A DNA stretch of 64,000 nucleotides, taken from NCBI RefSeq assembly GCF_003999195.1, contig NZ_RJVR01000323.1, positions 62,001-126,000 of the forward strand, in the 5' to 3' direction. The number at the start of each line of letters is the position of its first letter. Within the stretch, counting starts at the first letter, position 1. A model generated the notes under the pieces. It was not told the DNA's origin. It worked only from the letters and a program-made list of their open reading frames with translations, and ran no database searches. Positions 7,173-63,298 of this stretch are shown piece after piece. Source of the DNA: Streptomyces soli. Lineage in GTDB: Bacteria > Actinomycetota > Actinomycetes > Streptomycetales > Streptomycetaceae. Made by a program: the position numbers and the translations under genes.

Positions 7173-7204
7173 AGTCTGGAAAGTCCCCACAGGAGGACAA
7201 AAGT

Positions 7205-8122
7205 ATGCGAAGCATGTGGAAAGGGGCGATCGGCTTCGGCCTGGTATCCATCCCCGTCAAGCTCTACGCGGCCACAGAGGAGCACGGGGTCTCGCTCCAC
7301 CAGGTCCACGCCGTCGACGGCGGCCGCATCCGCATGAAGCGCACCTGCGAGAAATGCGGCAAGGAAGCCGCCTACGCCGAGATCGCCAAGGGCTACGAGG
7401 ACGACGCCGGCCGTACGGCCATCCTCACCGACGCGGACCTCGCGCAGCTCCCCCTGCCCAGCAAAAAGCTCATCGACGTCCTCGCCTTCGTCGACGAGGG
7501 CGACATTGACCCCCTCTCGCTCTCCCGCGCCTACTACGTCGGCGCCGAGGCGGCAGCCGCCAAGCCCTACGTCCTGCTCCGCGAGGCCCTCCTCAAGAGC
7601 GGCAAGTCCGCCGTCACCAAAATCGCCCTCCGCACCCGCGAATCCCTCGCCCTCCTCCGCGTCCACGACGACGTCCTCGTCCTCCACACCATGTACTGGC
7701 CCGACGAGATCCGCTCCGCCAGCGGCCTCGCCCCCTCGGACAACGTCACCGTCCGCCCCCAAGAGCTCAAAATGGCCGAAAGCCTCATGGAAACCCTCTC
7801 CGAGGACTTCGACCTCACTGCCCTCCACGACGAATACCAACACGCCCTCGACGAACTCGTCGCCGCCCGCCTCGAAGGCGAACCCGTACCCGAGGTCGCC
7901 GAAACCGCCGCCGCCCCCGACAACGTCATCGACCTCATGGCCGCCCTCCAGGCCAGCATCGACGCCCGCGCCGACGAGAAGAAGTCGACTGCACCGGCGA
8001 AGAAGGCTCCCGCCAAGAAGACTCCCGCCAAGAAGGCCGCCGCGAAGAAGGCTCCCGCCAAGAAGACAGCGGACAAGAAGGCCCCCGCCAAGAAGACAGC
8101 CGCCCGCAAGAAGGCCGGCTGA
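7205..8122 (+). CDS. ku: Ku protein with lysine-rich C-terminal tail
   Basis: A 305-residue bacterial Ku homologue, the homodimeric ring that binds double-strand ends and recruits the LigD-type polymerase and ligase. The core begins MWKGAIGFGLVSIPVKLY, a diagnostic Ku start, with YYVGAE and MYWPDEIR later. After about residue 255 comes a tail of repeated KKAPAKK/KKTPAKK units, a basic extension of the type that binds DNA in actinobacterial Ku. The ATG at 7205 has AGGAGG eight bases upstream. It is divergent from the polymerase and ligase genes. A second Ku lacking the tail lies at 57456. Confidence 0.93.
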   Translation: MRSMWKGAIGFGLVSIPVKLYAATEEHGVSLHQVHAVDGGRIRMKRTCEKCGKEAAYAEIAKGYEDDAGRTAILTDADLAQLPLPSKKLIDVLAFVDEGDIDPLSLSRAYYVGAEAAAAKPYVLLREALLKSGKSAVTKIALRTRESLALLRVHDDVLVLHTMYWPDEIRSASGLAPSDNVTVRPQELKMAESLMETLSEDFDLTALHDEYQHALDELVAARLEGEPVPEVAETAAAPDNVIDLMAALQASIDARADEKKSTAPAKKAPAKKTPAKKAAAKKAPAKKTADKKAPAKKTAARKKAG

Positions 8123-8142: not shown

Positions 8143-8240
8143 CAGCCCGTCCGGCGTTTGAGGACCGGGGGGACCCCCACCCAGCCGCCAGGGTGGGGGA
8201 GAGCCCCTGGTTTCGGGAAGGGGCGGGGTGGGGGAGGACA
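8143..8240. repeat. Composite dispersed hairpin element (copy A)
   Basis: The 128-base gap after ku holds a composite repeat. It starts with 23 bases at 8143-8165 that are the exact reverse complement of 39922-39944, followed by a GC-rich hairpin (CACCCAGCCGCCAGGGTG core) and a GGTTTCGGGAAGGGGCG segment at 8210-8226, also found in reverse at 39780 and 2021. The element could end transcription between the convergent ku and PHP genes. Confidence 0.75.
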
Positions 8241-19733: not shown

Positions 19734-19776
19734 GGGGGTCCTCCCCACCCAGCCGCCAGGCTGGGGGAGGACCCCC
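19734..19776. terminator. Long GC-rich hairpin of the dispersed element (copy B)
   Basis: A 13-bp perfect outer stem (19734-19746 with 19764-19776) encloses an inner CCAGCC/GGCTGG stem with a GCCA loop. The core resembles the hairpins at 8170, 39800-39920 and inside the pullulanase gene. It lies in the roughly 285-base gap between the convergent MFS and nadE genes, so it may act as a bidirectional terminator. I see no gene in the rest of the gap. Confidence 0.7.
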
Positions 19777-34471: not shown

Positions 34472-36142
34472 TCAGACCGCCCACCAGACACAGGAATCCG
34501 CTGGAACACGGACCATTTCACCCTCGACGGCCACCGGCTCCGAGGCGAGCACCGGCCGCCCCGGCACCGGCAGTTCGACCGCGTGGCCGAGCAGGTTGAC
34601 CGTACAGACGAAGCCCGGCCGGGCGAAGGACAGGACGCCCTCCGGGCTGTCCAGCCAGCTCAGCGAGCCGTCGCCGAGCCCCGGCAGCTCCCGGCGCAGC
34701 CGCAGCGCGGCCCGGTACAGCTCCAGCGTGGACGCTGGGTTGCCCGTCTCCACCTCGACCGAGAGATCCTTCCACTCCGGCGGCTGCGGCAGCCAGCTGT
34801 CGCCCGGGCCGAAGCCGTAGGGAGGCCGGTCCCCGGACCACGGCAGCGGCACCCTGCAGCCGTCGCGCAGGCCCTCCTGGCCGTTGTCGCGGAAGAAGGA
34901 CGGGTCCTGGCGCACCTCGTCCGGCAGGTCGGTGACCTCGGGCAGTCCGAGTTCCTCGCCCTGGTAGAGGTACGTGGAGCCAGGCAGCGCCAGCATCAGC
35001 AGCGCCGCCGCCCGGGCCCGGCGCAGGCCGCGTTCGCCGCCGCCGTAGCGGGTCGGGTGGCGTACGACGTCGTGGTTGGACAACACCCAGGTGGCGGGGG
35101 CGCCGACCGGGGCCATGGCCCTGAGGGTCTCGTCGATGACGGCGCGCAGCCCGGCGGCGTCCCAGCCGGCCATGACGTACTCGAAGTTGAAGGCCTGGTG
35201 CAGCTCGTCGGGGCGCAGGTAGCGGGCGCTGCGCTCCAGGGTGGGCGTCCAGGCCTCGGCGACGGCGATCCTCCCCCAGCCTCCGGCCGGGGGGACCCCC
35301 ACGCCGGGGTACTCGTCGAGGATCCGCCGCCAGTCGCGGTAGATCTCGTGGACGCCGTCCTGGTCGAAGAACGGCAACTCCTGGGTGTTGAGCAGGCCCA
35401 TCTCCTCGTTGCGGCCGATGTCGGGCAGGCCGGCAGCCTTGACCAGGCCGTGGGCGACGTCGACGCGGAAGCCGTCGATGCCGAGGTCGAGCCAGAAGCG
35501 CAGGATGGAGCGGAACTCGTCGCGGACGGCGGGGTGCTCCCAGTTGAAGTCGGGCTGCTCGGGGGCGAAGAGGTGCAGGTACCACTCCTCCTGCGCGCCG
35601 TCCGGGTCGGTCACACGGGTCCAGGCGGGGCCGCCGAAGAGCGAGTTCCAGTCGTTGGGCGGGAGTTCGCCGTGCGCGCCCTTGCCGGGGCGGAAGTGGA
35701 AGCGCTCGCGCAGCGGGGAGCCGGGGCCCTCGCGCAGTGCCTGCTTGAACCATTCGTGCTGGTCGGAGCAGTGGTTGGGGACCAGGTCCACGATCACCCG
35801 CAGGCCCAGCGCGTGGGCGTCGCGCACCAGGTCGTCGGCGTCTGTCAGGGTGCCGAACATCGGGTCGACGGCGCGGTAGTCGGCCACGTCGTAGCCGCCG
35901 TCGGCTTGCGGGGAGGCGTAGAAGGGGGTCAGCCAGACGGCGTCGACGCCGAGACCCTTCAGATACGGCAACCGGGCCCGGGCACCCGGCAGATCGCCGA
36001 TGCCGTCGCCGTTGCCATCGGCGAAGGAGCGCACGTACACCTGGTAGATGACAGCGCTCCGCCACCACCCGGCGCCGCCGGTGCCCTCGCCGGGTCGGCC
36101 GGCCGAGCGGTCGTGGACGTCGGGGGCGAGCTCCTGGGTCAT
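34472..36142 (-). CDS. aglA: Alpha-glucosidase, GH13 (first copy)
   Basis: A 556-residue cytoplasmic enzyme without a signal peptide that would hydrolyse maltose and short maltodextrins. GH13 regions: DLVPNHCSD, GFRVDVAHG (nucleophile Asp), AVAEAW (acid/base Glu) and LSNHDVVRH. It is closely similar to the second copy at 40014. Before the Glu region it contains VGVPPAGGWG, about nine residues absent from the paralogue and encoded by a hairpin repeat element (35271-35302). GAGGGA lies seven bases before the ATG. It is divergent from malE and followed by malR. Confidence 0.9.
   Translation of the reverse strand: MTQELAPDVHDRSAGRPGEGTGGAGWWRSAVIYQVYVRSFADGNGDGIGDLPGARARLPYLKGLGVDAVWLTPFYASPQADGGYDVADYRAVDPMFGTLTDADDLVRDAHALGLRVIVDLVPNHCSDQHEWFKQALREGPGSPLRERFHFRPGKGAHGELPPNDWNSLFGGPAWTRVTDPDGAQEEWYLHLFAPEQPDFNWEHPAVRDEFRSILRFWLDLGIDGFRVDVAHGLVKAAGLPDIGRNEEMGLLNTQELPFFDQDGVHEIYRDWRRILDEYPGVGVPPAGGWGRIAVAEAWTPTLERSARYLRPDELHQAFNFEYVMAGWDAAGLRAVIDETLRAMAPVGAPATWVLSNHDVVRHPTRYGGGERGLRRARAAALLMLALPGSTYLYQGEELGLPEVTDLPDEVRQDPSFFRDNGQEGLRDGCRVPLPWSGDRPPYGFGPGDSWLPQPPEWKDLSVEVETGNPASTLELYRAALRLRRELPGLGDGSLSWLDSPEGVLSFARPGFVCTVNLLGHAVELPVPGRPVLASEPVAVEGEMVRVPADSCVWWAV
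35271..35302 (-). repeat. In-frame hairpin element inside the first alpha-glucosidase gene
   Basis: On the minus strand, GTGGGGGTCCCCCC, GGCCGGAGGC and TGGGGGAG follow one another and form a GC-rich hairpin of the dispersed family. The paralogue at 40014 reads EYDGERIGVAEAW where this gene reads EYPG, then VGVPPAGGWG, then RIAVAEAW, so a net 27-base in-frame insertion is inferred. Confidence 0.8.
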
Positions 36143-36222
36143 AGGGGTCCCTCGTGAGTCGGGCCTGGCGGAAGCAGTCCGTGAGCGAGTGAAGCAATGC
36201 GTTTCAGGAATTTGCGGAAGGA

Positions 36223-36240
36223 TACGCAATAGCTTGCAGC
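36223..36240 (-). promoter_or_regulatory. Candidate MalR operator for the first alpha-glucosidase gene
   Basis: On the minus strand the sequence GCTGCAAGCTATTGCGTA contains CTGC-N6-TTGC and the palindromic view TGCAA-N4-TTGCG. It lies about 80 bases before the aglA start. The same pattern recurs before malE and in the region before the pullulanase gene. Confidence 0.6.
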
Positions 36241-36310
36241 AGGGGGAGCGTGCCACGTCAAGTCTTCCGACGGCAACCGTGAGGACACGCGGATGTAACG
36301 ATCAGAAGAT

Positions 36311-39769: not shown

Positions 39770-39944
39770 TCCCCCACCCCGCCCCTTCCCGAAACCGGGC
39801 TCTCCCCCAAACCTTCGTTTGGGTGGGGGTCCTCCCCCAACCTGGCGGCTGGGGGGGTCCCCCCGGCCGAAGGCTGGGGGAGTGCCCCCACCGGCCGAAG
39901 GCTGGGGGAGAGTGCCCCCAGGTCCTCAAACGCCGGACGGGCTG
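39770..39944. repeat. Cluster of tandem hairpin elements (composite copy C)
   Basis: The gap of 254 bases between malG and the second glucosidase gene is nearly filled by repeats. In order they are CGCCCCTTCCCGAAACC (39780 on), a CCCAAAC-CTTC-GTTTGGG hairpin, a second imperfect hairpin, and two tandem units with core GGCCGAAGGCTGGGGGAG. The last 23 bases (39922-39944) are the reverse complement of 8143-8165. They may attenuate transcription after malG. Confidence 0.8.
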
Positions 39945-43160: not shown

Positions 43161-43306
43161 CCGGCTCACAGTCCGGCACCGACGCCGGACGGCACCCGGC
43201 TCATGCGCGTGGGTACCGGGCGCGAGCGTCACTGGCGGTGGGGCCTGGCTCCGGGACCGCCAGCGGCACAACCGTCCGCACACGGATTCCGCAAGGAGAT
43301 CGCCCC

Positions 43307-46300
43307 GTGGCCCAGCAGCCCTGGCTGTCTGTGTTCGCTGCGCGCGCCCGGCGCGCGCGCGGCAGACGCATCACCGTAGCCGTCGCCCTGGCGGCACTCG
43401 CCGCCGCCTTCGTGCAGCCCGTCGCCGCCCACGCGGCCACCCCGCCGGCCCCGCCGTTCGACAGGACGCTGGTCACGCAGGCCGCCGCCCGCAACGACCT
43501 GACCCGCGAGCAGTTCTACTTCGTCATGCCGGACCGTTTCGCCAACGGCGACACGTCCAACGACAAGGGCGGCCTCACCGGCACCCGGCTCACCACCGGC
43601 TACGACCCCACCGACAAGGGCTTCTACCAGGGCGGCGACCTCAAGGGCCTGACAAAGCGGCTGGACTACATCAAGGGCCTCGGCACCACCTCCATATGGA
43701 TGGCGCCGATCTTCAAGAACAAGGCCGTCCAGGGGACCGGTGATGGGGGCACTCCCCACTCCGCCGGCTACCACGGCTACTGGATCACCGACTTCACCCA
43801 GGTCGACCCGCACTTCGGCACCAACGCCGATCTGAAGAACCTGATCTCCAAGGCCCACGCCAAGGGCATGAAGGTCTTCTTCGACGTCATCACCAACCAC
43901 ACCGCCGACGTCGTGGACTACGAGCAGCAGTCCTACGGCTACCTCTCCAAGGGCGCCTTCCCGTACCTGACCAAGGACGGCGTGCCCTTCAACGACTCGG
44001 ACTACGCGGACGGGACGAAGGCCTTCCCGGCCGTGGACACCGGCTCCTTCCCGTACACCCCGACGGTCACCTCCCGGAGCAAGGTCCCGTCCTGGCTCAA
44101 CGACCCGACCATGTACCACAACCGGGGCAACTCCACCTTCGCCGGCGAGAGCGCCGACCAGGGCGACTTCTCCGGCCTCGACGATCTGTGGACCGAGCGC
44201 CCCGAGGTCGTCAAGGGCATGGAGAAGATCTACGAGAAGTGGGTCAGGGACTTCGACATCGACGGCTTCCGGATCGACACCGTCAAGCACGTCGACATGG
44301 CCTTCTGGACCCAGTGGGCCACCGCCCTGGACACGTACGCGGCCCGGCACGGCCGCAAGAACTTCTTCCAGTTCGGCGAGGTGTACTCCTCCGACACATC
44401 CGTCACTTCGCCCTACGTCACCCAGGGCAAGCTCGACGCGACCCTCGACTTCCCCTTCCAGGAAGCCGCCCGCGAATACGTCTCGCAGGGCGCCTCGGCG
44501 GCCAAGCTGTCGAGTGTCTTCGCCGACGACTACAAGTACACGTCCGGCAAGTCCAACGCCTATGAGCAGGTCACCTTCCTCGGCAACCACGACATGGGCC
44601 GCATCGGGTACTTCCTCAAGACCGACAACCCCGGCGCCACCGACGCCGAGCTGGTCCAGAAGGACAAGCTCGCCAACGAGCTGATGTTCCTCAGCCGGGG
44701 CAACCCCGTCGTCTACTACGGCGACGAGCAGGGCTTCACCGGCTCCGGCGGCGACAAGGACGCCCGCCAGACCATGTTCGGGTCGAAGGTCGCCGACTAC
44801 CTCGACGACGACGAGCTCGGCACCGACCGCACCGCCGCCTCCGACGCGTACGACACGAGCGCGACGCTCTACCGCTCCATCGCCGACCTGGCCAAGCTGC
44901 GCAAGCAGAACCCCGCCCTCACTGACGGCGTCCAGGTCGAGCGTTACGCGGCCGACGGGGCCGGCGTCTACGCCTTCTCGCGCACCCTCGCCTCGGACGG
45001 CGTGGAGTACGTCGTCGCCGTCAACAACGCGACGACCGCCAAGAGCGTGGACCTGTCCACGTACTCGTCCGGAGTGACCTTCAAGGAGATCTACGGCGGC
45101 TCGGGCGACGTCACCTCCGGCGCCGACAAGAAGATCACCGTCGACGTCCCGGCCATGTCCGCCGTGGTCTACAAAGCGACGAAGCGCCTTGCCGACGCGA
45201 ACGGAACTCCCGCCATCACCCTCACCGCCCCCGACGCGGGCGCCACCGGCACCGTCACTGTCTCCGCCGGCATCGACGCCCCGGCGCTGAGCCGCGTCGT
45301 CTTCGCCGCCCAGGTCGGCAACGGCGACTGGCAGGTCCTCGGCTCCGCCGACCACGCCCCGTACAAGGTGACGCAGAGCATCGGCGCCGATGTCGCACCC
45401 GGAACGGCCGTCCGCTACAAGGCTGTTGTCGTCGACACCGGCGGCCGTACGGCAAGCGCCCTCGCACAGACGACCAGCGGCACCCCGGCCGCCCCGGCGA
45501 CCCCGACCGCCACCCAGCGGGACTACGCGATCGTCCACTACAAGCGCACCGACGGTGACTACACCGACTGGCGGCTCTACACCTGGGGCGACATCGCCGA
45601 CGGCGAGTCCACCACCTGGCCCGAGGGCCACAACTTCATCGGCCGCGACGCGTACGGCGCCTTCGCCTACGTCAAACTCAAGGAGGGCGCGAGCAACGTC
45701 GGCTTCCTCGTCATCGACAAGGACGGCAACAAGGACGTCTCCGCCGACCGCACCATCGACGTCAGCCAGACCGGCGAGGTCTGGGTCTCGCAGGGCAACG
45801 CGGACGTCCTGACGAAGGCCCCCGCCGGCGCCTACCCCGCCCTGGGGGCACCTCCCAGCCGCCAGGCTGGGGGAGACACCACAAAGGCGGTCATCCACTA
45901 CCACCGCGTCGACGGCGACTACTCCGGCTGGGGCCTGCACGTCTGGACCGGCGCCGCCACCCCCACCGACTGGTCCAGCCCCCTGGCCCCGGTGAAGACT
46001 GACGCCTATGGCGCGGTCTTCGAGGTACCCCTCACGGACGGGGCGACATCGCTCAGCTACATCATCCACAAGGGCGACGCCAAGGATCTCGACGCCGACC
46101 AGTCCCTGGACCTGTCGACGTACGGGCACGAGGTGTGGCTCCTGAACGGAACCCAGAAATACCTGCTGCCGTCCACCGCCGGCTCCTCTGCCGACCTCGA
46201 CCTCTCCGCCGCCAAGGCCCAGTGGATCGACCGGAACACCGTCGCCTGGGACACCAGCACCACGGCAGCCGCCAGCTACCAGCTCGTCTACGCCCCCGAC

Positions 46301-48835
46301 GGCGGCATCACGGTGAAGGACGGTGCCCTGTCCAGCGAGGGCCACTGGCTTCGCCTCCAGCCGGTATCCGGCGGTCTCACCGACGCCCAGAAGCAGCGGT
46401 TCCCGCAGCTCAAGAACTACGCCGCCTTCACCGTCGACCCGCGCGACCGCGACCGTATCGGCAACGCCCTGACCAGCCAGGTCATCGCCACCCAGCGGCT
46501 CGCCAACGGCGCCCTGCTCGCCGCCACCGGCGTCCAGACGCAAGGCGTTCTGGACGACCTCTACGCCGCCAAGGCCGGCAAGGCCTCACTCGGCCCGGTC
46601 TTCAGGGACGGCACGCCGACGCTCTCCGTCTGGGCGCCCACCGCCCAGTCCGTCGCCCTGGACCTGGGGGCACCTCCCAGAGGAAGCTCTGGGGGAGGCA
46701 CGACGGTCGCCATGAAGCGGGACGCCGCCAGCGGCGTCTGGAGCGTCACCGGCAGGAAGTCCTGGACCGGCAAGCCCTACCGGTACGTGGTCAAGGTGTG
46801 GGCGCCCAGCACGCAGAAGGTCGTCACCAACAAGGTCACCGACCCCTACTCGGTCGCCCTCACCACCGACTCCAAGCGCAGCCTCGTCGTCGACCTGGAC
46901 GCCAAGTCCCTTGCGCCCAGCGGCTGGTCGAGCCTCGCCAAACCCAAGGCCGTCTCCCTCAACAACGCCCAGATCCAGGAACTCCACATCCGCGACTTCT
47001 CCTCCGAGGACACCACCGTCCCGGCGGCGGACCGCGGTAAGTACACCGCCTTCACCGACACCGACTCGGCGGGCATGAAGCACCTGAAGGCGCTCGCCAA
47101 GTCCGGGGTCAGTTACGTCCACCTCCTCCCGGCCTTCGACTTCGCGACGGTCGCGGAGAACGCGGCGGATCAGGCGGTGCCGGACTGCGACCTCTCCTCG
47201 TACGCCGCCGACTCCGACAAGCAGCAGGAATGCGTCAGCGCGGTCGCGGCCAAGGACGCGTACAACTGGGGCTACGACCCACTCCACTACACCGTGCCGG
47301 AAGGCTCGTACAGCACCGACCCCGAGGGGACGAAGCGCACCGTCGAATTCCGCAGGATGGTGCAGAGCCTCAACACGGCAGGTCTGCGGGTCGTCATGGA
47401 CGTGGTCTACAACCACACCGCCGCCTCGGGTGAGGACGACAACTCCGTCCTCGACCAGATCGTGCCCGGCTACTACCAGCGGCTGCTGGCCGACGGCTCG
47501 GTGGCCAACTCCACGTGCTGCAGTAATACGGCGACCGAGAACGCGATGATGGGCAACCTGGTCGTCGACTCCGTCGTCACCTGGGCCAAGGAGTACAAGG
47601 TCGACGGCTTCCGCTTCGACCTCATGGGCCACCAGCCCAAGGCGAACCTCCTCGCTGTGCGGAAGGCGCTGGACGCGCTGACGCTCAAGAAGGACGGCGT
47701 CGACGGCAAGAAGATCATCATGTACGGCGAGGGCTGGAACTTCGGCGAGGTCGCCGACGACGCCCGGTTTGTCCAGGCCACCCAGAAGAACATGGCCGGC
47801 ACCGGCATCGCCACCTTCTCCGACCGCGCCCGCGACGCCGTCCGCGGCGGCGGCCCCTTCGACTCCGACCCCGGCGTCCAGGGCTTCGCCTCCGGCCTCT
47901 ACACCGACCCCAACACCTCGACGTCCAACGGCACCGAGGCCGAGCAGAAGTCCCGCCTCCTCCACTACCAGGACCTCATCAAGGTGGGCCTGACCGGCAA
48001 CCTGAAGGACTTCACGTTCACCGACTCCTCCGGCAAGGAGGTCAAGGGCTCCGAGGTCGACTACAACGGCACGGGCGCCGGCTACGCGGACGCCCCGGGC
48101 GATTCGGTGGCGTACGTGGACGCCCACGACAACGAGACCCTCTACGACGCCCTCGCCTACAAGCTCCCCTCCGGCACCTCGGCGGACGACCGCGCCCGCA
48201 TGCAGGTGCTGGCCGAGGCGACGGCGGCGCTGTCCCAGGGACCGGCGCTGTACCAGGCCGGTTCCGACCTCCTGCGCTCCAAGTCCTTCGACCGCGACTC
48301 GTACGACTCCGGCGACTGGTTCAACGCCATCCACTGGGACTGCTCCACCGGCAACGGCTTCGGCCGCGGTCTGCCGCCGGCGACGGGCAACCAGTCCAAG
48401 TGGCCTTACGCCAAGCCCCTGCTGGGCATCACGTCCCTCAAGGCGGTCTGCGCGCAGATGGACTGGGCCACGGCGGCCTACCAGGATCTCCTCAAGATCC
48501 GCTCCACGGAGCCCGCCTTCGGCCTGACCACCACCTCGGCGGTCCAGGACCAGCTCTCCTTCCCGCTTTCGGGTCATGGGGGCACCTCCCAGACGAAGTC
48601 TGGGGGAGAGACTCCTGGCGTCATCACCATGAAGCTCGGCAAGCTCCTCGTCGTCTTCAACGCCACCCCCAAGTCCCAGGCGCAGACGGTTGCTTCACTG
48701 TCCGGCAAGCCCTACACCCTTCACCCCGTCCAGGCCTCCGGCTCCGACCCCGTCGTCAAGACGGCCTCGTACGACTCCGCCTCCGGCACCTTCACCGTCC
48801 CGGGTCGCACAGTGGCGGTCTACGTGCAGAAGTAA
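43307..48835 (+). CDS. pulA: Secreted bifunctional alpha-amylase/pullulanase
   Basis: A 1842-residue exoenzyme. Signal peptide: residues 1-45 ([24 protein letters not shown]). About 60-500 is a GH13 alpha-amylase domain with [29 protein letters not shown] and LGNHDMGR. About 735-1000 holds two CBM41/PUD-like starch-binding units ([15 protein letters not shown] and [15 protein letters not shown]). About 1010-1842 is a pullulanase domain with signature [26 protein letters not shown] and YGEGWNFGE. It should cut alpha-1,4 and alpha-1,6 links of starch outside the cell. AAGGAG lies eight bases before the GTG. Several hairpin elements are translated within it. Confidence 0.93.
43744..43758 (+). 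repeat. Partial hairpin element inside the pullulanase gene
   Basis: ATGGGGGCACTCCCC resembles the left part of the 33-nt elements further along the gene and encodes GDGGTPH between QGT and SAGYHGYW. It may be a worn or truncated copy. The case is weaker than for the three full copies. Confidence 0.45.
45843..45875 (+). repeat. In-frame 33-nt hairpin element in the pullulanase gene, copy 1
   Basis: TGGGGGCACCTCCCAG is followed by CCGCCAGG and CTGGGGGAG. The inner stem pairs CCCAGCC with GGCTGGG. It encodes [12 protein letters not shown] in the linker between the two starch-binding units. The length is a multiple of three and the frame stays open. Confidence 0.85.
46665..46697 (+). repeat. 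In-frame 33-nt hairpin element in the pullulanase gene, copy 2
   Basis: The same 16-base head and 9-base tail as copy 1 enclose AGGAAGCT, so the inner stem is CCCAGAG with CTCTGGG. Both sides of the stem changed together relative to copy 1. It encodes [12 protein letters not shown] in the domain before the pullulanase catalytic region. Confidence 0.85.
48577..48608 (+). repeat. In-frame 32-nt hairpin element in the pullulanase gene, copy 3
   Basis: The head and tail are as in the other copies, with inner stem CCCAGAC and GTCTGGG around a short GAA-type loop. It encodes [11 protein letters not shown] between FPLSGH and [10 protein letters not shown], near the carboxyl end. Confidence 0.8.
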
Positions 48836-52192: not shown

Positions 52193-52942
52193 TCAGCCCT
52201 TGGTCGGGTGGTCCGCACTCGGCTTCGAGTCCTGCCCCGGTCCGTAGCCGGTGGCCGGCCTGGAATCCTGGCCGGGCCTGGAGGCCTGGCCGGGCCTGGA
52301 GGCCTGGCCGGGCCTGGAGGCCTGGCCGGGCCTGGAGTCCTGCCCAGGCCTGGAGGCCTGCCCAGGCCTGGAGTCCGGACCGGCTCCCGGCCTGTGCTGC
52401 TCGCCCGGCCTCTGCTGGTCGTGCGGTTGCGCGCCCGTGCCGATTGCCGGATGGGGGATCGACGTGATGTCCGAGATCCGCTTCGCGGCGAAGTCGGACT
52501 GCACGCTCAGGTAGCTGAACGTGCGCTGCGCGCCGCTGCCCCACGTGAGCCGTACGAGGCTCCACACGTGGCCCGCATCACTCTTGTCGTACTTGACCGC
52601 CCACGCGGTCGGCACGTTCTGCGCGCGCAGCACACCGTCCGCGTGGGAGCGATGCTCCCAGATCGCGAGGCGCTGTTGCAGCCTGCCGGTGAGGTAGTGC
52701 TTGCGCAGCTCCCCGGTGAGCCGGCTGCGGCTCGAGTCGTGGACGGCGTCGATGTACGCGCCGTAGAAGCTCGCCACCTGGTCGGTCGGCGAGCCCGTGA
52801 TGCCGCTCCGGACGACGGCAGCCGGCCCCGGTCCCTGCGGCCCGGGCGGTGGCGCCTGCTGCGCGGCCGCTGGGATGGTGAAAGCCGCCACCAGAGCGGC
52901 GGCGGCGAGAAGAGTGCGGCGGACCGTGCGAGTGCTGGTCAT
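52193..52942 (-). CDS. Secreted protein with C-terminal SRPGQ hexapeptide repeats
   Basis: A 249-residue protein with a signal peptide ([20 protein letters not shown]), then a Pro/Gly linker, then a globular region of about 125 residues ([26 protein letters not shown] without long gaps, [22 protein letters not shown]). The tail carries about seven hexamer units SRPGQ(A/D). The DNA behind them is an 18-bp tandem repeat. The globular part resembles nuclear-transport-factor-2-like or DUF-type secreted domains, but I cannot name it. The repeats may span or bind the wall. Confidence 0.75.
52257..52375. repeat. 18-bp tandem repeat (coding minisatellite)
   Basis: About seven tandem copies of an 18-base unit based on GGCCTGGAGGCCTGGCCG encode SRPGQ(A/D) hexamers on the minus strand. 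The central copies are identical at the DNA level and the outer ones show a few substitutions. The length is a multiple of three, so copy number can change without a frameshift. Confidence 0.9.
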
Positions 52943-53059
52943 GGCGATCGGTGCCCTTTCACGTGCCGGAATGAGCGAATTCACCCAGAAGGTGACGCCT
53001 TATCCTGTGCGATCCGATACGTCATGGCCGGTTGTACACGCGGCGAGTGCCCGACAGTC

Positions 53060-56413: not shown

Positions 56414-57295
56414 ATGGAACTGCGCCAGCTCGAATACTTCGTCGCCGTCTCCGAAGAGGCGAGCTTCACCAAGGCCGCCGCCCGCCTGCACGTGGCGCAG
56501 CCGGGGGTGAGCGCACAGATCCGGCAACTGGAACGCGAGTTGGGCCAGCCGCTGTTCGACCGCTCGGGGCGGACCGTACGGCTCACGGAGGTTGGGGCCG
56601 CCGTCATGCCGTTCGCCCGGGCGGCGCTCGGGGCGGTCACCGGGGCGAGGCTCGCCGTGGACGAGCTGGCGGGGCTGGTGCGCGGTCACGCGGCCGTGGG
56701 CATGGTCGCGTCGTGCGGGCCGCTGGGCCTGCCGGGTCTGCTGGCGGAGTTCCATCGCGTACACCCGGGCGTCGAGATCAGCCTCACCGAGGCCAACTCC
56801 GACGTCCTGCTGGACGGCATCCAGAGCGGCCGGCTCGACGTGGCCGTGGTGGGTCTGGCCACGGACCCCCCACCGGGGATCGAGGTCCAGGTCGTCGTCG
56901 ACGAAGCACTCGTCGCGGCCGTGGCCCCGGACGACCCCCTGGCCGGCAGCCGTATGGTCCGCCTGGACGCCCTCCAGGACCGCGCCCTGATCACCCTCAC
57001 CAGGGGCACCGGACTGCGCACCGCCGTCGACAGCGCCTGCGCCAAGGCCGGCTTCCGGCCGCGTATCGCCTTCGAGGCCAGTGACCCGAACATCCTGGCC
57101 GACCTGGCCGCGCAGGGCCTCGGCGTGGCGATCCTCCCCGAATCCCTCGGCGCCGCCCGCACCGCCGACCTACGCCCCCTCACCGTCACCGCCCCGGCCC
57201 TGCGGTCCAAACTCGCCCTCGCCTGGCGCGCGGACACCGCGCCCGGCCCCGCCGCCCGAGCCCTGATCCGGCACGCCCGCGCCGCACTACGGTGA
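56414..57295 (+). CDS. LysR family transcriptional regulator
   Basis: A 293-residue regulator starting MELRQLEYFVAVSEEASFTKAAARLHVAQPGVS, the standard winged helix-turn-helix of LysR proteins, followed by the linker helix and a substrate-binding domain (GLPGLLAEFHRVHPGVEISL, GLGVAILPESLG). LysR genes often face their target; the gene after it in the same direction is ku2, and the target is not clear. Confidence 0.93.
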   Translation: MELRQLEYFVAVSEEASFTKAAARLHVAQPGVSAQIRQLERELGQPLFDRSGRTVRLTEVGAAVMPFARAALGAVTGARLAVDELAGLVRGHAAVGMVASCGPLGLPGLLAEFHRVHPGVEISLTEANSDVLLDGIQSGRLDVAVVGLATDPPPGIEVQVVVDEALVAAVAPDDPLAGSRMVRLDALQDRALITLTRGTGLRTAVDSACAKAGFRPRIAFEASDPNILADLAAQGLGVAILPESLGAARTADLRPLTVTAPALRSKLALAWRADTAPGPAARALIRHARAALR

Positions 57296-57455
57296 CGGTG
57301 CCTGGGGCAGGCGTAGCAGGCGCCCGTACAGCGCCTGCGTTCCGGCTGAGCCGCGCGACCCCGTGCGCCCGGGAGGGGTAGGACCCCGGCTCAGCCACAA
57401 GCCCTATGGCCCATCCCACCGCGCGCCGCGACCGCCGAGCCTTCAGGATGGCAGT

Positions 57456-58214
57456 ATGCGCGCTGTCTGGTCGGGTTACGTCAGCTTCGGCCTGGTCAGC
57501 GTGCCCGTGCAGCTCTTCTCCGCCACCCAGGAGGCGCGCCCCCGCTTCCACGAGGTGCACGAGGCGGACGGCTCGCGGGTGCGGCACAAGCGGTGGTGCG
57601 AGGCCGAGTCCCGGGAGATCTCGCAGCAGGAGGTGGCGCGGGGCTGGACAGCCCCGGACGGCCGGATGGTGGTACTGCGGGACGAGGACCTCGAGCACCT
57701 GCCACTGCCCACCAGGAAGACCATCGACCTGCTGGGCTTCGTGGACATCGAGGACGTCGACCCCGTGATGTACGCCAAACCGTACTGGGCAGGCCCGAAC
57801 GGACCCAGCGCCCAACGGCCTTACGCCCTTCTGGTGGAGTCCCTCGCGCGCTCCGGCCGCGTCGGCGTGGCCAAGCTGGCGCTGCGCACCCGGGAGCGCC
57901 TGGCGATCCTCAGACCGCGCCTTGGCGTCCTGGCCTGCCACACCCTGTGGTGGCCGGAGGAGATCCGCGAACCCGACGACCTCACCAGCTCGGCGCCCGT
58001 GTCGGACGTGGAGCTGGCCATGGCGGAGATGTTGATTGACCAGCTCGCCGGCGTCGACATCGGCGGGCTGCATGACGACTACGCGGCCGCGCTCGAGCAG
58101 GCCGTGACCGCGCGGCTGGAAGGCGGGGAGCTGGCCGAGCCCCCGGAGCCGGTACCCGCCGTGGACCTGATGGCCGCGCTGGTGGAGTCGATCCGGCAGG
58201 CGGGGCGGCAGTGA
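57456..58214 (+). CDS. Second Ku protein, short form without basic tail
   Basis: A 252-residue Ku homologue starting MRAVWSGYVSFGLVSVPVQLF, with core segments YAKPYWAGPNGPSAQRPYALL and LWWPEEIREPDDL. It ends shortly after DLMAALVESIRQAGRQ, the conserved end of the core. It lacks the Lys/Ala/Pro repeats of the Ku at 7205. Streptomyces often keep several Ku paralogues used at different stages; this one has no ligase or polymerase gene near it. AGGATGG lies about eight bases upstream of the ATG. Confidence 0.92.
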   Translation: MRAVWSGYVSFGLVSVPVQLFSATQEARPRFHEVHEADGSRVRHKRWCEAESREISQQEVARGWTAPDGRMVVLRDEDLEHLPLPTRKTIDLLGFVDIEDVDPVMYAKPYWAGPNGPSAQRPYALLVESLARSGRVGVAKLALRTRERLAILRPRLGVLACHTLWWPEEIREPDDLTSSAPVSDVELAMAEMLIDQLAGVDIGGLHDDYAAALEQAVTARLEGGELAEPPEPVPAVDLMAALVESIRQAGRQ

Positions 58215-60688: not shown

Positions 60689-61087
60689 ATCAGAGCCGGA
60701 TGACGACCAGGGCCGACTCGTCCCGTCCGCCGAGGCCTGGATCCGGAACGCCTTCGTGTACGCAGCCTCCCAGGTGAGGACGACCTGGGTGATTGACTGG
60801 GTCGACCCCAGATCGACCTGGAGTCACTGCGGATCGCTGAATGCGCTGGACCAGCGGGTGCCGGTGTCGCCGTCCACGGCCGCGGACGCGGGCGAGCCCG
60901 CGTTCTCGGTCGAGGACGCCGTCGCGGCCTTCCCCTGGGAGAGCAGGACGGGATCGGCGGCCACGGCCTGTTGAGGCGTGCTCGTCAGGCCGAGTACGGC
61001 GATCATCAGGAACCCGAGAAGGGCAGCCAGCCGTGACCTCGACGTCGATGCGCGTCGGCGTCGTCTCGCGTACCGCGTCTGGGACAT
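60689..61087 (-). pseudogene. Discoidin-domain secreted protein gene with a nonsense mutation
   Basis: From ATG 61087 a signal peptide (LAALLGFLMIAVLGLTSTPQQAVA) leads into an F5/8C (discoidin) domain: LLSQGKAATASSTENAG and AVDGDTGTRWSSAFSDPQ. TGA at 60826-60824 stands where the paralogue at 61136 has TGG (DPQW). The frame continues with LQVDLGSTQSITQVVLTWEA and then decays to a stop at 60689. It is a broken partial duplicate of the neighbouring GH16 gene's first domain. AAGGG lies about nine bases before the ATG. Confidence 0.8.
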
Positions 61088-61135
61088 GGTGGCTGCCCTT
61101 CTCTTGCGGGTGTGGGGGGAGTGGGGGGCTGGGGG

Positions 61136-63298
61136 TTACTGCGAGACGCGCACGTAGTCGATCAGCATCTTCTGCGGGAAGACGGTCGAGGCGTCCGGAG
61201 CGCCGGGCCAGTCACCGCCCACCGCGTTGTTGAGGATGATGTAGAACGGGTGGTCGTACACCCAGGGGCCCCTGGTCTGTTCCAGGGTCGAACGCTCCAC
61301 GGTGAAGAAGGCGTTGCCGTCCACCGAGAAGGTCATGTGGCTGGAGTCCCAGTCCAGGGCGTAGGCGTGGAAGGCGCTCGCGAAGTCGCTGCCCGCGACC
61401 GTGTAGGGCAGGCCGTAGCCGGCGGCGCCGAAGTAGGCGGGTGCGTGAATGGTGGAGTAGACCGAGTCCGCGACCTTGCCGACGTGCTCCATGATGTCGA
61501 TCTCACCGCAGTTGGGCCACGGCGTACCGGTCTTGAAGTTGGAGCCGAGCAGCCAGAACGCGGGCCACAGCCCCTGGGTGCCGGTGACCTTGATGCGGGC
61601 CTCGACATGGCCGTAGGTGAAGTTGAAGTGGTCGGAGGTGTTGATCCGGCCGGAGGTGTACTGGCAGGTCGTGCTGCCGCTCAGCGGGTCCGTGGGGCAG
61701 CTGGAACCGGGGGTGACCTCCTTGCGGGCCTCCAGGACCAGATTGCCGCTCCCGTCCTGGTAGGCGTTCTTGTTGTTGGTGTAGTACTCCAGTTCGTTGT
61801 TCACGCCGGCGCCCGCGTCGGCCGTCCACTTGGAGGAGTCCGGGGTGGTCCCGGAGGCCGCGTTGAACTCGTCGCTCCACACCACGTGTTCCGGGTTGCC
61901 GGGGTTCGGCGGGAGAGCCGGGGGAGCGGTGGGGTTGCCGCCGGTGCCGTAGACGTCGAAGGTCCACAGGGAGTAGCCGTAGGCGCTGCTGCGGGCGGTG
62001 CCGTACATCCGCACGTACCGGCCGTTGCCGTCGACGGTCAGGGTCTCCTTGAAGCCCTTGCCAGTGGTGGTGGAGTAGATGCTCGTCCAGTTGGTGCCGT
62101 CGGACGAGACCTGGATCTGGTACGCGGTCGCGTAGGCCGGGTCCCACTGCAGGACGACCTTGTCGATGTGCGCGGTGGCTCCCAGGTCCACGGCGATCCA
62201 GCCGGGGTCCACCCAGCCGTTGGTGTCACTGGTCGCCCAGCGGGTGGCCGGGTCCTCGTCGAACGCCTTGGCCGGGGTGCAGCCGGAGCAGTTGGCGCTG
62301 TCCTGGTAGGTGGAGGCGGTGGCCGGCTTGCCGTACGAGAGCAGTACGGAGCCGTTCGTCGGCGGGGTGGTGGTGCCGGTGGTGAAGACCTGGAACTCCC
62401 AGAGGGAGTAGCCGTACTGGGTGGCGCGCTGGGTCCCGTACATACGGATGTAGCGGCCGGTGCCGGAGAGGGTGATCAGCTCGGTCGCGCCCGGGCCGGT
62501 GGTCGTGGAGTGGACGCTGGTCCAGTTGGCGCCGTCGGTGGAGACTTGGATCTGGTATGCGGTCGCGTACGCGGTCTCCCAGCTGAGCTGGACCCCGCAG
62601 ATGGACTGGCTCGAGCCGAGGTCGACCTGGAGCCACTGCGGGTCGGAGGCGGCGGAGGACCAGCGGGTGCCTGTGTTGCCGTCGACCGCTGCCGAGGCGG
62701 GGGTGCCGGAGTTCTCGGTGGACGACGCGGTGGCGGTCTTGTTGAGTGCCGCGTTGGTGGTGCCGCAGCCCGCGTCGGCGGTGCCGGCGGTGCCGTAGAC
62801 CTGGAATTCCCAGAGCGAGTAGCCGTATTGGGTCGCGCGCTGGGTGCCGTATACGCGGACGTAGCGGCCGGTGCCGGTGACGTTAAGGGTCTCGGTGCCG
62901 CCGGCGCCGGTGGTGGTGGACCGGATGCTGGTCCAGTTGGTGCCGTCTGTGGAGGTCTGGATCTGGTAGGCGGTCGCGTACGCGGTCTCCCAGTTCAGGA
63001 TGACCTGGCTGATCGTGGCGGCCGCGCCGAGGTCGACCTGGAGCCACTGCGGGTCGGAGGCGGCGGAGGACCAGCGGGTGCCCGTGTTGCCGTCGACCGC
63101 GGCGGAGGCGGGAGTGCCGGCGTTCTCGACCGAGGAGGCGGTCGCCGTCTTCCCCTGGGAGAGCAGCGTCGCGGCGGCCTGGGCCGGTGAGCCGGTCACG
63201 GCCACCGCGAGGACCGCCACGAGAGCGGAGACGACGGCCAGGGCGATGCTGCGGTAGCTCAGGCGTCTTGCGATGGGGGTGGGGGGACTGCCTGTCAT
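61136..63298 (-). CDS. Secreted GH16 beta-glucanase with three discoidin (CBM32) domains
   Basis: A 720-residue exoenzyme. The signal peptide is about residues 1-40 (ALAVVSALVAVLAVAVTGSPAQA). Three F5/8C domains follow, each with a TRW...DPQW or DPGW segment, a VDLG motif and YGYSLW near its end. From about 470 a GH16 domain carries VVWSDEFNAASG, WPAFWLLGSNF and the catalytic EIDIMEH. It should cleave beta-1,3- or mixed-link glucans such as laminarin, fungal or algal wall. GAGGAG lies six bases before the ATG. It diverges from the LacI gene that likely controls it. Confidence 0.92.
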   Translation of the reverse strand: MTGSPPTPIARRLSYRSIALAVVSALVAVLAVAVTGSPAQAAATLLSQGKTATASSVENAGTPASAAVDGNTGTRWSSAASDPQWLQVDLGAAATISQVILNWETAYATAYQIQTSTDGTNWTSIRSTTTGAGGTETLNVTGTGRYVRVYGTQRATQYGYSLWEFQVYGTAGTADAGCGTTNAALNKTATASSTENSGTPASAAVDGNTGTRWSSAASDPQWLQVDLGSSQSICGVQLSWETAYATAYQIQVSTDGANWTSVHSTTTGPGATELITLSGTGRYIRMYGTQRATQYGYSLWEFQVFTTGTTTPPTNGSVLLSYGKPATASTYQDSANCSGCTPAKAFDEDPATRWATSDTNGWVDPGWIAVDLGATAHIDKVVLQWDPAYATAYQIQVSSDGTNWTSIYSTTTGKGFKETLTVDGNGRYVRMYGTARSSAYGYSLWTFDVYGTGGNPTAPPALPPNPGNPEHVVWSDEFNAASGTTPDSSKWTADAGAGVNNELEYYTNNKNAYQDGSGNLVLEARKEVTPGSSCPTDPLSGSTTCQYTSGRINTSDHFNFTYGHVEARIKVTGTQGLWPAFWLLGSNFKTGTPWPNCGEIDIMEHVGKVADSVYSTIHAPAYFGAAGYGLPYTVAGSDFASAFHAYALDWDSSHMTFSVDGNAFFTVERSTLEQTRGPWVYDHPFYIILNNAVGGDWPGAPDASTVFPQKMLIDYVRVSQ

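Follow-up and report, generated by a model that had tools for sequence, protein, structure and literature searches.

On sequence comparison, the pullulanase gene in a 64,000-nt stretch of Streptomyces soli DNA (contig NZ_RJVR01000323.1, positions 62,001 to 126,000; referred to below as the window) hosts three members of a short mobile hairpin family of Streptomycetaceae, most copies of which are intergenic and a minority of which are translated. The best explanation, to which we give a probability of roughly 0.8, is that these hairpins enter genes by a 4-nt replacement, pass two filters, one acting on the DNA and one on the peptide, and afterwards may decay in frame. The relevant features of the window are collected in Table 1.

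Table 1. Hairpin elements, relatives, and host genes in the window (positions from the first letter of the window).
Feature	Position	Strand	Description
Pullulanase host gene	43238..48835	+	ORF, 1865 aa; Pfam alpha-amylase, PUD, Pullulanase_N2, CBM_48, Pullul_strch_C
Element 1	45843..45875	+	TGGGGGCACCTCCC-AGCCGCCAGGCT-GGGGGAG; 11-residue reading between two PUD domains; net +30 nt
Element 2	46665..46697	+	Middle AGAGGAAGCTCT; 11-residue reading inside CBM_48; net +27 nt versus most orthologues
Element 3	48577..48608	+	Middle AGACGAAGTCT; 10-residue reading inside Pullul_strch_C; net +27 nt versus most orthologues
15-nt palindrome TGGGGGCACTCCCCA	43744..43758	+	In pullulanase; A. glaucinigra (L031) carries a full copy at this codon; possible remnant
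Related element, head GGGGGTCCCCCC	35271..35301	-	In-frame reading GVGVPPAGGWGR; codon score on both sides plus ORF
GH13 alpha-glucosidase-like gene	34472-36256	-	Host of the related element at 35271..35301
Intergenic cluster	39800..39915	.	Related hairpins with other heads
Related hairpin	19742..19769	+	In noncoding DNA; shares the AGCCGCCAGGCT middle but not the head
Related hairpin	8167..8201	+	Different head; directly downstream of a Ku gene

The head GGGGGCACCTCCC and the tail GGGGGAG do not differ among elements 1 to 3, and the inner arms are complementary within each copy (AGCC/GGCT, AGAG/CTCT, and AGAC/GTCT); the shared ends and compensated inner stems claimed in the initial annotation were all found where it had placed them. 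Folded as RNA, each element pairs over 9 bp (-15 to -19 kcal/mol) and leaves its 5' GGGGG single-stranded; a search of the whole window against Rfam at the gathering score returned no matches. All three lie in frame within the pullulanase ORF. The Gly/Pro/Ser-rich inserts had also been located at or near domain boundaries, which holds for element 1 only, since elements 2 and 3 fall inside Pfam domains. In a structure prediction covering 1,117 aa, the three elements occupy low-confidence coil; the model is poor (mean pLDDT, 54.6) and hints weakly that they may be situated in loops.

The peptide stretches had been expected to be absent from orthologues, and in an alignment of pullulanases from Streptomyces and Actinacidiphila, 80 of 80 sequences did lack all three. 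They are missing likewise from G049, the nearest relative examined (85% identity), against which the net gain at element 2 is 24 nt; the nearest named orthologue, from Actinacidiphila glaucinigra, is 78% identical. Copies at other places in the gene were found in seven loci (L031, L070, L144, L146, L149, L151, and L152). Empty and filled sites were also compared for PheT, PheS, HutH, RsgA, LeuS, PcrA, AcnA, and NuoG, in up to 20 genomes. An assembly artefact was ruled out, as genomes assembled into a single contig, G001 and G113 among them, also contain copies. Judged by these alignments, the three pullulanase elements are insertions. The 15-nt palindrome upstream in the same gene could be what is left of a full copy or could have arisen independently; the loci from the closest relatives (L131 to L154) stop before its site.

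A search by head and tail of the genome to which the window belongs (G000; 9.4 Mb, 412 contigs) gave 54 exact copies, against none for a reversed-pattern control, and a looser head raised the count to 87; G015 has 88 copies with a slightly looser head. Across the family, the exact 34-nt form occurs in 17 of 200 genomes and a looser form in 41 of 298. Together with the absence of the inserts from orthologues, these copies bear out the proposal of a dispersed, REP-like mobile palindrome able to insert in frame into coding DNA. By codon score, the majority of copies retrieved from G000, G015, and G019 are noncoding, the in-gene share being estimated from fetched loci and not from whole-genome annotation. 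Among 60 copies from G015 and G019, 32 lie strictly within another palindrome, GGGGCGCG^GGGAACTGCGCG; unoccupied versions of it exist too, the retrieved loci containing 50 empty and 22 filled strings. The palindrome GGGGCGCGGGGAACTGCGCG is common between genes (L164 to L223) and a frequent location of the hairpin.

The family had been said to occur between genes in the window as well. Intergenic relatives are indeed present, but with other heads; within the window, the exact head is confined to the three pullulanase copies. The Ku gene preceding one of these relatives is one of two separate Ku genes in the window, at 7175-8119 (+) and 57267-58211 (+) (Pfam Ku, E values of 7e-45 and 3e-41); the first has a histone-like tail rich in lysine-alanine.

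In-gene copies were assigned with a codon score built from the 80 pullulanase orthologues. Of 165 distinct copies scored, 35 were flanked by coding sequence on both sides; loci were fetched regardless of coding context, and owing to pattern choice and shared descent the copies are not independent events. Thirty-four of the 35 lie in the plus orientation, the exception (L125) being a weak call, and none is frameshifted. The right end falls in one codon phase in all 34 plus-oriented copies and the left end in 31, against 3. The dominant reading frame, GGTSQ...GSGGG, accounts for 31 of the 35, and on these scores in-gene copies are nearly always read as a glycine-rich Gly/Ser linker; the element brings in rare codons (TCT, used for 1.1% of Ser, and GGA, used for 4.9% of Gly). 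Besides pullulanase, identified with Pfam, family models identified LeuS, PheT, PcrA, and RsgA as hosts, while PheS, HutH, AcnA, NuoG, Rho, a chitinase, a protein kinase, an ABC ATPase, and others were recognized by characteristic motifs. Several of these host genes are usually essential. Tandem in-frame copies with a 30-nt period occur in PheS (three copies; L167, G015) and NuoG (two copies; L232, G005).

The suggestion that the palindrome spreads when its length keeps the frame needs adjusting: the frame is kept, but by units of length 1 mod 3 and not by multiples of three. Such lengths, mostly 31, 34, or 37 nt, make up 31 of 35 in-gene copies, compared with 35 of 118 noncoding ones (Fisher P = 4e-10). 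Because such a unit replaces 4 nt, it adds 27, 30, or 33 nt overall. For the typical in-gene unit, the 34-nt TGGGGGNACCTCCCAGGCCGNAGGCTCTGGGGGA, comparison with near empty sites gave a replacement of exactly 4 nt and a net gain of 30 in 24 of 24 pairs, several of which share one site and are not all independent; L397, a 31-nt unit whose alignment is one base off, was left out of this count. The replaced bases are mostly SRAC ahead of GGC, that is, an Asp or Asn codon ahead of Gly: CAAC in PheT and AcnA, GGAC in HutH and LeuS, CGAC in RsgA and HutH, and GAAC or CAAC at pullulanase site B. Some of the relatives compared have GAAT, CACC, or AAAC at this position. Among the pullulanase elements of the window, element 3 belongs to the 4-nt kind, and elements 1 and 2, described as 32-nt units, replace about 2 and about 5 nt.

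A neutral comparison is provided by G000, in which one IS200-type transposase gene carries a copy (L124, G000:C355:8281-8672) and a sister does not (L161). The flanks are 98 to 100% identical, and CC[AG]GAGTACG has become CC[31 nt]GAGTACG, a net gain of 29 that breaks the frame. This one case shows, at the level of sequence, that the insertion event itself need not respect frame, and selection would thus account for frame keeping in working genes. About 2 nt were replaced both here and at the intergenic palindrome site, so there may be two insertion modes, with 2-nt and 4-nt replacement. Target-site duplication is absent; the neutral pair has instead 2 nt of target replaced, and in-gene sites 4 nt. 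We considered whether selection alone could explain the in-gene pattern, with insertion promiscuous in position and deletion length and only the copies at Asp-Gly or Asn-Gly, in the Gly/Ser frame and frame keeping, being left. The out-of-frame neutral copy with its different replacement length, the unequal replacements at elements 1 and 2, and the coil placement in the poor model of the window's pullulanase all agree with this reading, which is a serious candidate at somewhat under even odds. Exact nucleotide recurrence across genera and a constant loss of 4 nt, where 1 or 7 nt would also preserve the frame, count against it. Against the 4-nt replacement reading counts that, inside genes, 4 nt is one of few frame-keeping losses available to a 34-nt unit.

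Recurrence was examined at sites shared between genomes. In the pullulanase tree, each of four site B carriers (L070, L144, L146, and L151) groups with non-carriers, and G080 holds a further site B copy; in the pheST tree, the PheT carriers G009, G055, G056, and G113 are scattered. HutH copies in G001, G013, G022, G229, and G266 and PcrA copies in G013, G015, G113, and G232 give the same picture by presence and absence. Since flanking sequences of shared sites track species and inner sequences at one site vary between genera (GGCCGGAGGC, GGCATTCGGC, and GGCTTTCGGC), repeated insertion is favoured over transfer or a single ancient gain. The two gene trees suggest that the same nucleotide position has probably been struck repeatedly in different lineages. 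That the insertions are instead ancient and vertically inherited, or spread by recombination between species, would fit the relatedness of some carriers and the remnants seen beside full copies (HutH in G001 and G012, PheS in G015 and G042), but we regard it as unlikely, given the non-carrier sisters and the behaviour of flanks and inner sequences. Part of the recurrence could also stem from turns at Asp-Gly and Asn-Gly being structurally permissive, from copies of long standing that were lost many times, or from gene conversion acting locally.

The initial annotation read the covariation as a sign of selection on the hairpin instead of the peptide. The covariation itself is real: across 52 distinct middles, swapping the arms weakens folding for 11-mers (-14.8 real versus -12.0 swapped; standard deviation, 0.5) and 12-mers (-13.5 versus -11.9; standard deviation, 0.33), with no clear difference for 14-mers. 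The conclusion drawn from it does not hold as worded, since pairing has been lost with the frame kept in HutH of G012, PheS of G042, and PcrA of G013 and G113, and arm covariation among copies can be explained by different source copies. The peptide appears to matter as well, because 34 of the 35 in-gene copies share an orientation and 31 of them a frame. We infer that the hairpin is important for spreading and the peptide for survival. At shared sites, 0 to 1 of 9 to 10 four-fold positions differ inside the element, and in the flanks the share is about one fifth to two fifths. Recent independent copies would account for this no less than constraint. Taken with the rare codons and the stable hairpin, the scarcity of four-fold changes might also point to a host function, in which the translated hairpin pauses ribosomes or supplies a useful linker. 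We consider this highly improbable: the distribution is patchy, with the element missing from most orthologues of each host gene, copies decay, and the majority are intergenic.

Candidate mobilisers were sought among the copy-rich genomes. Y1 transposases, reverse transcriptases, and IS110 transposases were each rejected, being missing from some of them: no Y1_Tnp match was found in G009, G015, G018, or G019 (16 to 88 copies; drafts that may be incomplete), no reverse transcriptase (PF00078) in the drafts of G015, G018, G019, and G007, and no IS110 transposase (PF01548) in those of G018 and G009. A RAYT/REP system, in which REP elements are moved by a Y1 transposase (IS200-like or RAYT), would suit the size, the palindromic form, the mainly intergenic spread with occasional in-gene copies, and the 18 Y1_Tnp matches, fragments included, in G000. 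The four genomes without a Y1 match, the lack of a GTAG or CGTC tag, and the replacement of target bases make it quite improbable here.

Under the 4-nt replacement reading that we prefer, a subset of units enters genes by swapping exactly 4 nt, usually the SRAC of SRAC|GGC; as comparison with empty sites shows, a flexible Gly/Ser linker thereby takes the place of an Asp or Asn codon ahead of Gly, with the frame preserved. The first filter would be the moving machinery, acting on the hairpin, as its fixed ends and covarying arms suggest; the second would be purifying selection, which by retaining tolerated peptides would leave the observed pattern of one frame, one orientation, and no frameshifts in working genes. 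Some copies decay afterwards through in-frame deletion. We would guess that the mover is either an unrecognised nuclease or some repair or replication process of the host, with the extruded hairpin as donor and 2 to 5 nt of target swapped. Tentatively, and at less than an even chance, the stronger form would have an unrecognised, Y1-independent system targeting SRAC|GGC, swapping exactly four bases, and repeatedly making Gly/Ser linkers of Asp/Asn-Gly turns in enzymes, usually essential ones among them, at one and the same nucleotide across genera.

This is the same kind of phenomenon as Rickettsia palindromic elements (RPEs) and intragenic REPs, with differences in tag, Y1 link, length, and target behaviour. 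RPEs, of about 100 to 150 bp, are translated in frame in unrelated protein-coding genes (PMC10969869); the hairpins resemble them, on sequence grounds, in lying in frame in unrelated genes and being absent from orthologues, but their units measure 31 to 37 nt, their hosts belong to a high-GC actinomycete family, one frame predominates, and the target loss is a defined 4 nt. GTAG- and CGTC-tagged REPs are mostly intergenic palindromes of 20 to 40 bp, some of them inside UvrD/Rep helicase and tRNA synthetase genes, with same-site insertion of intragenic copies in recB only (PMC3733652). The Streptomycetaceae hairpins fall in this size range, are dispersed and mostly intergenic, and occur in PcrA, LeuS, PheS, and PheT; unlike those REPs, they end in TGGGGG and GGGGGA(G), lack a GTAG/CGTC tag, are not consistently accompanied by a Y1 gene, and show recurrent same-site insertion. 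Neither Streptomyces nor Actinobacteria turned up in a text search of that paper. The Cod-2 repeats of Corynebacterium diphtheriae, compared here by description, are likewise very small structured repeats in actinobacterial coding sequences (32 nt), but yield different peptides in different frames (PMC2267715), whereas the hairpins have one dominant frame. Like MITEs, the hairpins are short, non-autonomous, dispersed, and palindromic; unlike them, they replace target bases and lack a target-site duplication. Literature searches by sequence (head, tail, intergenic palindrome, and GGTSQ peptides) gave nothing relevant, the head string occurring in an unrelated axolotl paper, and text searches on Streptomyces palindromes and RAYT gave no description of the family; coverage was partial in both, and an earlier description is possible.

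The family appears to offer a clear case of mobile DNA writing peptide linkers into working enzymes, including tRNA synthetases, Rho, PcrA, and RsgA, which are apparently unbroken. Recurrent nucleotide use and base-exact empty and filled sites make the movement of REP-like palindromes testable, and annotators and structural biologists may read GGTSQ...GSGGG stretches in Streptomyces-like proteins as inserted DNA. Repeats of other kinds were also seen in the window: three copies of diverged direct repeats of 227 to 300 nt at 60720-63166, and, in a short gene at 52193-52984 (-), a C-terminal run of the six-residue repeats ASRPGQ and DSRPGQ.
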